Positions 284 through 1,910 of a stretch of DNA of 47,307 nucleotides are shown here, piece by piece (within the stretch, counting starts at the first letter, position 1; each line of letters begins with the position of its first letter). The DNA lies in the NCBI GenBank assembly GCA_030669415.1, contig DAOVDS010000002.1, forward strand, positions 1-47,307, read 5' to 3'. This DNA comes from a bacterium (GTDB lineage Bacteria > Planctomycetota > SKW154 > DAOVDS01). The position numbers and the translations under genes are program-made. The notes under the pieces were generated by a model. That model was not told the origin of the DNA. It worked only from the letters and a program-made list of their open reading frames with translations, and searched no databases.

Positions 284-1303
284 ATGAGTACGCAACAAGT
301 CATCCTGGAGCTTGAGACTAAGAGGGACTCCAACGTTATTGCTTTTATTACCTCTGACCGCCCGCCGCCCGTGGCTGCAAAAATAGCGGGCGACGTGATA
401 CGCATTTTTTACGAGCACTTGACGAGTCTTGAGGAGAAGGCAAATCTCGACCTGTTTATCCACAGCAGAGGTGGCGACACAGCAGTACCTTGGCGGCTGG
501 TGAATCTGTTGAGGGAGTTCTGTTCAAACCTCACTGTGCTGGTTCCATACAGAGCCCACAGTGCTGCAACCTTGATTGCCTTGGGCGCAAACAAAATCAT
601 CATGAGTCGTTTGGGCGAGCTTTCACCGATTGACCCAACCGTCGGCACGCCCTTCAACCCTTCTCACCCCACAAACCCCCAACAGCAAGTGGAGATAGGT
701 GTAGAAGACGTAATCGGGTTTTTCAACTTCACCAGGGAGCGTATCGGAATTACCGACCAAGGGAAGGTCCTTCGCGTGCTTGAAAAGTTTGTGGACAACC
801 TTCACCCCCTGGCAATAGGCGGGATATATAGGTCTCATTCTTTCATAAGGATGATTGCTACGGAACTCCTATCCCTTCACATGACAGGAAAGGGCGAAGA
901 GGTGAAAATCCCGCATATTGTCGAACACATGGTCGAGAAGCTCTACTATCACAACTACTCGATTCCTTGGAAAGAAGCTAAGAAGATTGGCCTAAAAGTG
1001 GTCAAAGCAGATGACGAAACAGAAAAGCTCCTGATGAACCTTCACTTCGAGTATGAAAAGGAAATGAGCCTCGGCAAGCCCTTCAACCCGGAGGAGTTCT
1101 TAGCGGGAGGCAATACGGGAGAGAAAGTAGTCAGCTTGGCGGTCGTAGAAAGCAAAGGAAAGAAGTCTAAGGTTCTCAAGAAAATCAAAGTCACAAGAAA
1201 CGCTATCCCTCCTGGTGCGCCGCCTGGGGCCATACCACCCTATTCGGTACATCAGGAGTTTCTGGGGTGGCAGACTGTGGAACCGGAAGGGAGCACATCA
1301 TGA
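284..1303 (+). CDS. SDH family Clp-fold serine proteinase (SppA/ClpP superfamily)
   Basis: LDLFIHSRGGDTAVPWRLVNLLREF...VLVPYRAHSAATLIALGANKIIMSRLGELSPIDPT is typical of the serine dehydrogenase proteinase family, with candidate nucleophile Ser in AHSAAT. Confidence 0.85.
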   Translation: MSTQQVILELETKRDSNVIAFITSDRPPPVAAKIAGDVIRIFYEHLTSLEEKANLDLFIHSRGGDTAVPWRLVNLLREFCSNLTVLVPYRAHSAATLIALGANKIIMSRLGELSPIDPTVGTPFNPSHPTNPQQQVEIGVEDVIGFFNFTRERIGITDQGKVLRVLEKFVDNLHPLAIGGIYRSHSFIRMIATELLSLHMTGKGEEVKIPHIVEHMVEKLYYHNYSIPWKEAKKIGLKVVKADDETEKLLMNLHFEYEKEMSLGKPFNPEEFLAGGNTGEKVVSLAVVESKGKKSKVLKKIKVTRNAIPPGAPPGAIPPYSVHQEFLGWQTVEPEGSTS

Positions 1304-1575
1304 AATGCACTGCGGGGGGCAACAGCCCCAATGGCTTCTTCTTGACGATACAGGCTCAAGAAACCTATCCAGCTCTTGGAGAGCAGTTCACAGCTTACGC
1401 TTCTGCCGACAGTCCTCCGCTCTTTGCTCTGTACGAGACAGAATGGCAACCTATGCCCACGGCACAAGATGTGCTGCTTATAGACGAAGAAGCGATAGCA
1501 GAGGACTTCGAGCTTGCAGAGATGGGTCTGGACGAATACTGCGATATACTGGCTCGTGAAGATGAAGAAGCCTAA
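1300..1575 (+). CDS. Small acidic protein, candidate antitoxin of the downstream MazF
   Basis: 91 aa from ATG at 1300 (ATGA overlap with upstream stop); acidic C-terminus DEEAIAEDFELAEMGLDEYCDILAREDEEA; TAATG overlap with mazF-like start. Confidence 0.65.
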   Translation: MKCTAGGNSPNGFFLTIQAQETYPALGEQFTAYASADSPPLFALYETEWQPMPTAQDVLLIDEEAIAEDFELAEMGLDEYCDILAREDEEA

Positions 1576-1910
1576 TGACGCGGCGAGAAGTCTACTATGC
1601 AAATCTCAACCCTGCTCGTGGTTCTGAACAGAAGGGACTGCGTCCAGTTGTTATTGTGCAGGCTGACTTCGTAGCATCTTTCACTCAGACTGTAGTCATC
1701 GTGCCATTCACCACCAATATGAATCGTGCCAGACTCCTTACCTGCGTTTTCGTGCCTAAAGATGAAGGAGGACTGCGGGAGGATTCTGTAGCTCTTTGCC
1801 ACCACGTAAGGGCAATAGACTCGTCAAGACTGTCTGACTACTGGGGAAAGCTCTCAGAGGAATATACGGCCCGAATTGATGCTGCATTAGCACTAACTCT
1901 CGGACATTGA
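1575..1910 (+). CDS. Type II toxin-antitoxin system PemK/MazF family toxin
   Basis: RREVYYANLNPARGSEQKGLRPVVIVQADF...VVIVPFTTN...ALCHHVRAIDSSRL matches the MazF/PemK pattern. Confidence 0.9.
   Translation: MTRREVYYANLNPARGSEQKGLRPVVIVQADFVASFTQTVVIVPFTTNMNRARLLTCVFVPKDEGGLREDSVALCHHVRAIDSSRLSDYWGKLSEEYTARIDAALALTLGH

Follow-up and report, generated by a model that had tools for sequence, protein, structure and literature searches.

The window analysed here, the entire 47,307-nucleotide contig DAOVDS010000002.1 of assembly GCA_030669415.1 (Planctomycetota), begins with an operon of three overlapping genes, which encode a Clp-fold serine protease of the SDH type (P0001), an acidic protein of 91 amino acids (P0002) and a toxin of the MazF family (P0003), as seen in a check of the open reading frames (ORFs). 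Comparison with other genomes brought out the layout of this operon and its recurrence, the homology of the P0002 tail to that of an ordinary antitoxin, the sharing of N-terminal modules in related systems, the exchange of toxins and the conservation of the predicted catalytic residues. Membership of the operon in a recurrent protease-antitoxin-toxin family is well supported. We regard it as fairly probable that it works as a three-part toxin-antitoxin (TA) system, in which the N-terminus of the antitoxin is coupled to the co-encoded protease, which sets the antitoxin level and, when it acts, releases the toxin.

The operon and its recurrence behind SDH proteases

P0001 scored 55.1 bits with PF01972 (SDH_protease), for which the curated cut-off is 31.3, and matched phrog_11747 in PHROG with an E-value of 7.8e-43. 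With the NCBIfam equivalog NF047768 (SDH family Clp fold serine proteinase) it reached 60.3 bits, below the required 250, suggesting that P0001 is a member of the superfamily that lies outside that equivalog. In an alignment of 37 homologues, Gly63, Gly64, Ser93, Asp117 and His223 are among the fully invariant columns; P0001 keeps its predicted catalytic residues intact, in the order Ser-Asp-His, and the Gly63-Gly64 pair is presumably the oxyanion-hole motif, as in the Clp fold generally. Since a sequence search of the PDB with P0001 gave no match, folds were compared instead, and the AlphaFold2 model (predicted local distance difference test, pLDDT, 93) matches SppA, ClpP and 1510-N. The SDH/Clp-fold signature assigned to this gene in the initial annotation is thus confirmed by family score, invariant residues and predicted fold. 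In addition, the model contains a C-terminal beta extension, which may possibly serve as a docking part for the partner protein.

P0003 reached 94.2 bits with PF02452 (PemK/MazF; cut-off 23.1), in agreement with its initial designation as MazF-like, and aligned over nearly its full length to solved MazF structures in the PDB (E-values down to 3.9e-20). MazF is an mRNA-cutting enzyme. Arg23 (positions 1641-1643) and Thr46 (1710-1712) of P0003 align with the catalytic Arg and Thr of the PDB MazFs and are invariant in alignment A3, and we take them to have the same catalytic role here. Between these two proteins, P0002 showed no family match in Pfam, NCBIfam, PADLOC or PHROGs, and the same searches found no AbrB or RHH DNA-binding domain in it, as the initial annotation had stated. 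Relatives of P0002 were found neither on plasmids, nor in viral sequences, nor in 58 other genomes of the phylum, and PADLOC gave no match for any of the three proteins. The ATGA and TAATG overlaps noted at the two gene junctions are present, and the former probably couples translation of the protease and middle genes.

Scans for homologues of the protease yielded 64 loci from viral contigs and 80 loci from about 85,000 species genomes; the tighter alignment A2 was used for the genome scan, the first alignment, A1, being too diverse. In most loci a small gene lies behind the protease, often overlapping the protease stop. A protease followed by an overlapping or adjacent small gene and by a third gene of a toxin family was found in the window and some 20 further loci, and the arrangement occurs with differing toxins in bacteria, archaea and phages. 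The third gene is a MazF in L127 (a Nitrospirae metagenome-assembled genome, with a protease 47% identical to P0001), L204 (Anaerolineae) and L102 (a viral contig). The initial annotation had proposed a neighbourhood survey as a check on the SDH-protease/MazF pairing; the two scans rule out a pairing special to the window's genome, and the recurrence bears out the view that the protease is encoded together with a TA pair.

The placement of MazF was then described with a profile built from 65 MazFs, all of them from outside protease operons, which was searched against 1.40 Mb around 145 SDH genes. Nine MazF-type ORFs were found, eight of which lie on the same strand as the protease and at most 600 bp behind it. 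With the window excluded, seven of the eight fall in this zone, which makes up 6% of the sequence, and these placement statistics rule out a mere chance neighbour.

Table 1. Features of the operon at the start of the window
Feature	Position	Strand	Basis
P0001, SDH-type Clp-fold serine protease, 339 amino acids	284..1303	+	PF01972, phrog_11747, AlphaFold2 fold
Gly63-Gly64, presumed oxyanion-hole motif	470..475	+	invariant in 37 homologues
Ser93 codon AGT, presumed nucleophile	560..562	+	invariant in 37 homologues
Asp117 codon GAC, presumed triad residue	632..634	+	invariant in 37 homologues
His223 codon CAC, presumed triad residue	950..952	+	invariant in 37 homologues
C-terminal beta-strand extension of P0001, residues 278-332	1115..1279	+	AlphaFold2 strands 278-290, 293-305, 320-332
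ATGA overlap, protease stop/middle-gene start	1300..1303	+	sequence
P0002, middle protein, 91 amino acids, proposed antitoxin	1300..1575	+	position, tail homology
N-terminal part of P0002, residues 1-54, proposed protease-coupled segment	1300..1461	+	AlphaFold2 disorder; analogy with other loci
Acidic helical tail of P0002, residues 58-91, MazF-antitoxin tail	1471..1572	+	leave-one-out profile; AlphaFold2 helix
TAATG overlap, middle-gene stop/toxin start	1573..1577	+	sequence
P0003, MazF/PemK-family toxin, 111 amino acids	1575..1910	+	PF02452, PDB MazF matches

The window corresponds to contig 400 of its assembly, which starts 283 bp upstream of the protease gene, and the genes preceding the protease are therefore unseen. 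The operon's neighbours in the window, judged by eye, resemble housekeeping genes.

A two-part middle protein and the exchange of toxins

By sequence comparison the middle protein is composed of two parts, a predicted C-terminal acidic helix that tracks the toxin and an N-terminal part that, in related systems, tracks the protease. The four middle proteins linked to MazF were compared by their C-terminal 42 residues, with profiles that omitted one protein at a time and were run against 19,587 ORFs. The E-value of the omitted tail was 3.3e-3 for the window, 2e-8 for L127, 4e-10 for L204 and 4e-6 for L102, and the window tail was the top match outside the training set. The nearest MazF outside the protease group belongs to L231/L260, which comes from the same phylum as the Anaerolineae genome. 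The antitoxin upstream of MazF in L260 carries the same tail (1e-7) behind another N-terminus, with no SDH gene within 7 kb. Similarly, the tail of the PemK-linked partners was also found on an antitoxin-like ORF beside a MazF-type gene in L219 (1.1e-4), at which locus no SDH gene was seen. The occurrence of the same tail in pairs without an SDH protease suggests that the tail goes with the toxin. The acidic C-terminus, which had been likened to that of an antitoxin from its composition, is accordingly homologous to the tail of an ordinary MazEF antitoxin, and a toxin-binding role is proposed for it. In the ordinary pair itself (L260:6778-7322) the MazF frame stops at an in-frame TAG short of the usual C-terminus.

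The N-terminal part was traced through partners that occur without a toxin. In one phage group, the partners without a toxin retrieve the MazF-linked middle protein of L102 (2.2e-6), and in another group such partners retrieve that of L204 (5e-4). Meanwhile, models of the GLTS group retrieve the Doc-linked L191 (2.5e-9) and the PemK-linked L203 (4.5e-7), and the N-terminus of the toxin-free L194 and L201 is common to these two. Because N-termini are common to toxin-free and toxin-linked partners, the N-terminus appears to go with the protease in those groups. For P0002, AlphaFold2 (with only four sequences in the alignment) predicted a helix at residues 55-90, with pLDDT of about 86-91 at its core, and gave pLDDT below 50 across most of residues 1-50.

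The third position is occupied by various toxin families. Distant PemK-like genes were found in L106, L148, L181 and L203, PIN genes confirmed by Pfam in L066, L157 and L192, close relatives of PIN or PIN-like third genes in L099, L167, L064, L137, L140 and L151, and a Doc gene in L191 (TIGR01550, 73.5 bits, cut-off 38.65). The PIN call of the L064-type gene comes from motifs and was unconfirmed by Pfam or PDB profile search, so the gene is kept as PIN-like; L064 scores with the joint third-position PIN profile, of whose training set it is itself a member. In L156 the middle protein (1218-1937) has a Panacea antitoxin domain at its C-terminus (PF13274, 69 bits), and the third gene behind it weakly resembles ParE. 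The third gene of L179 looks HEPN-like by eye, with no database support. On a tree of 133 proteases, built by a quick method and with many weak deep branches, the type of the third gene has to change no fewer than 21 times and MazF falls in three separate clades, suggesting that toxins have been swapped repeatedly. For example, the proteases of L156 and L157 are 84% identical and their third genes differ, and L192, L196 and L199, which form one clade with about 50% protease identity, each have a different third gene.

These results bear on the simplest alternative, in which an ordinary MazEF pair lies by chance behind an unrelated SDH protease. Both families are common, and the ordinary pair of L260 has the same tail; however, such a coincidence is opposed by the recurrent placement and the overlapping reading frames, as well as by the N-terminal modules that related loci have in common with toxin-free partners and the repeated toxin swaps at one position, and we consider it highly improbable.

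Proposed control of the toxin by the protease

Removal of type II antitoxins is usually ascribed to housekeeping proteases, for example Lon and ClpP, and the trigger of the toxin has long been a matter of debate. In the mechanism that we favour, the acidic helical tail of P0002 would bind and block the MazF toxin, while the remainder of the protein, predicted to be mostly disordered, would be coupled to the SDH protease encoded upstream. The protease would thereby set the amount of intact antitoxin. If it were activated, or if it outpaced synthesis (for example when synthesis is halted while the protease persists), P0002 would be degraded and the freed MazF would halt translation. During evolution, a toxin could be exchanged by joining the tail specific for another toxin to an N-terminus specific for the protease. 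We infer the neutralisation of MazF and the proteolysis of the middle protein, as well as the trigger and the benefit, which may be phage defence or stress arrest. Control of the antitoxin by the protease is favoured by the two-part design of the middle protein, by its disordered N-terminal part as a substrate, and by the precedent of 1510-N, a Clp-fold relative whose substrate is the product of its probable operon partner (PMC3795559). The loci share no conserved ATPase gene directly behind the protease, and the predicted disordered segment suits a Clp-fold peptidase that has no neighbouring gene for an ATPase or unfoldase.

Several points weigh against this mechanism. The match of the window tail (E 3.3e-3) is modest by itself. 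The N-terminus of P0002 matches no other N-terminal module, that of L127 included, and its coupling to the protease is therefore drawn by analogy only. In addition, many SDH homologues carry the small partner and no toxin, suggesting that protease and partner together serve some function even where no toxin is present. Finally, the sequence fits both directions of control, destruction of the antitoxin or delivery of the toxin to the protease.

Delivery of the toxin would make the middle protein an adaptor that tethers the toxin to the protease for degradation, so that the toxin is freed when protease activity is lost. This might be seen as parallel to SocA, a Panacea protein that brings SocB to ClpXP (PMC8832971), and a Panacea domain is indeed present within one middle protein of an SDH operon (L156); a two-part middle protein is also compatible with a tether. 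However, folded toxins would need an unfoldase, and the lack of a conserved ATPase gene directly behind the protease speaks against such a route, as does the retention of the partner in toxin-free loci, in which there would be no cargo for an adaptor to deliver. We regard an adaptor as unlikely.

The toxin-free loci raise a further alternative. In Escherichia coli, the protease and a partner of 59 amino acids occur in 47 of 5426 complete genomes at 99% identity or more, and in one plasmid-borne prophage examined the pair lies between antiterminator and lysis genes. The protease and the N-terminal partner might thus form a working unit of their own, for example against phage proteins; binding of the protease would stabilise the antitoxin, and an invader that blocked or removed the protease would free the toxin. 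The existence of toxin-free pairs, with a prophage cargo position in the case just mentioned, would suit such a guard, and dependence of an antitoxin on a third protein has a precedent in toxin-antitoxin-chaperone (TAC) modules (PMC6377645). The neighbourhoods are mixed, with restriction-modification genes near some loci, a further point in its favour, and metabolic genes near others. On the other side, the protease has no known target, and its invariant catalytic residues are equally explained by action on the partner; we think a guard role similarly unlikely.

Relation to known systems and further third genes

Like type II MazEF, the window operon combines a MazF-family toxin with a small acidic antitoxin in overlapping genes, and the C-terminal tail is as in the L260 antitoxin; unlike it, the antitoxin lacks AbrB and RHH, its N-terminus is of another kind, and a protease gene stands in front. 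In TAC modules, with a SecB chaperone (PMC6377645), a third co-encoded protein likewise governs the antitoxin, by way of a segment added to it. In contrast to these modules, a protease replaces the SecB-like chaperone here, the added segment is N-terminal in the related SDH loci, and the antitoxin is presumably destabilised. COG2856 (ImmA-like) zinc proteases encoded with Xre and with RelE or PIN toxins were predicted to be three-component TA systems (PMC2701414), in which the protease was likewise suggested to cleave the repressor or the antitoxin; however, this is an unrelated metalloprotease often fused to a helix-turn-helix antitoxin, whereas the present operons have a Clp-fold serine protease, no helix-turn-helix and many interchangeable toxins. 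STOPP/1510-N, encoded with stomatin (PMC3795559), is also a protease of the Clp fold; it cuts its probable operon partner and matches P0001 in structure, but it has a Ser-Lys dyad, a membrane partner and no toxin. A protease also participates in the SocAB system (PMC8832971), where it is a housekeeping enzyme and the toxin is the protein degraded, the Panacea antitoxin acting as ClpXP adaptor. Among the accessory third genes that Panacea loci rarely carry, Kurata et al. mention proteases. As for phrog_11747, to which P0001 is strongly matched, it is a sequence cluster only, of phage proteins of unknown function, and P0002 matches nothing in PHROGs.

Three-part TA systems are themselves already known, paaR-paaA-parE being another example. 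The present operon would be a type II TA system that has a Clp-fold protease of its own and an antitoxin of chimeric make-up. The initial annotation knew of no described system of this form, and in the open-licence literature, where protease-activated and three-gene TA systems were also sought, we likewise came upon no account of operons that join an SDH-type protease to exchangeable toxins. With the protease inside the operon, the question of toxin release becomes directly testable in one cloned unit, and the toxin-free versions in E. coli prophages offer an easy laboratory entry. In addition, a third position that holds MazF, PIN, Doc, RelE-like and unassigned genes is a route to new toxins.

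Several third genes lie outside the toxin families named above. In L139 (6450-6848), L150, L153, L164 and L168 the middle protein contains DUF5678 and the third gene encodes a clan AA aspartyl protease, so that a second protease occupies the toxin position. A family of 103 amino acids with no significant Pfam match, a candidate new toxin, is found in L171 (6311-6619) and L188 (4419-4727). Another unassigned family, with a QGDI-like motif, occupies the third position in L070 (7358-8089), L096 (2580-3002) and L196 (6202-6756); its L070 and L196 members also contain the motif TQTCD. On a Chlorohelix plasmid (L034:6115-10412), the SDH protease and a partner of 74 amino acids are followed by a protein of 1326 amino acids with AAA helicase and PD-(D/E)XK parts, possibly a defence effector. 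We tentatively suggest, with a little less than even confidence, that the Clp-fold protease and its matched disordered partner form a sensor-switch that is used alone in prophages and to which toxins are added through antitoxin tails. If so, the 103-amino-acid, QGDI and aspartyl-protease families and the L034 protein would be further effectors.

Some third genes appear broken, namely a PIN-like gene spread over two frames in L186 (6337-6619) and a short RelE-like ORF of 48 amino acids in L199 (3975-4121). Among the toxin-free loci, L128, L130, L132, L136, L160 and their relatives (clostridial and allied) carry a partner of 50-60 amino acids, mostly with the motif YY.LT..SG.PSA, and no third toxin gene was seen in them; these pairs are possibly a housekeeping form. 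The gene of the 59-amino-acid partner that overlaps the E. coli prophage SDH protease (L033:5959-6138) is absent from the annotation table.
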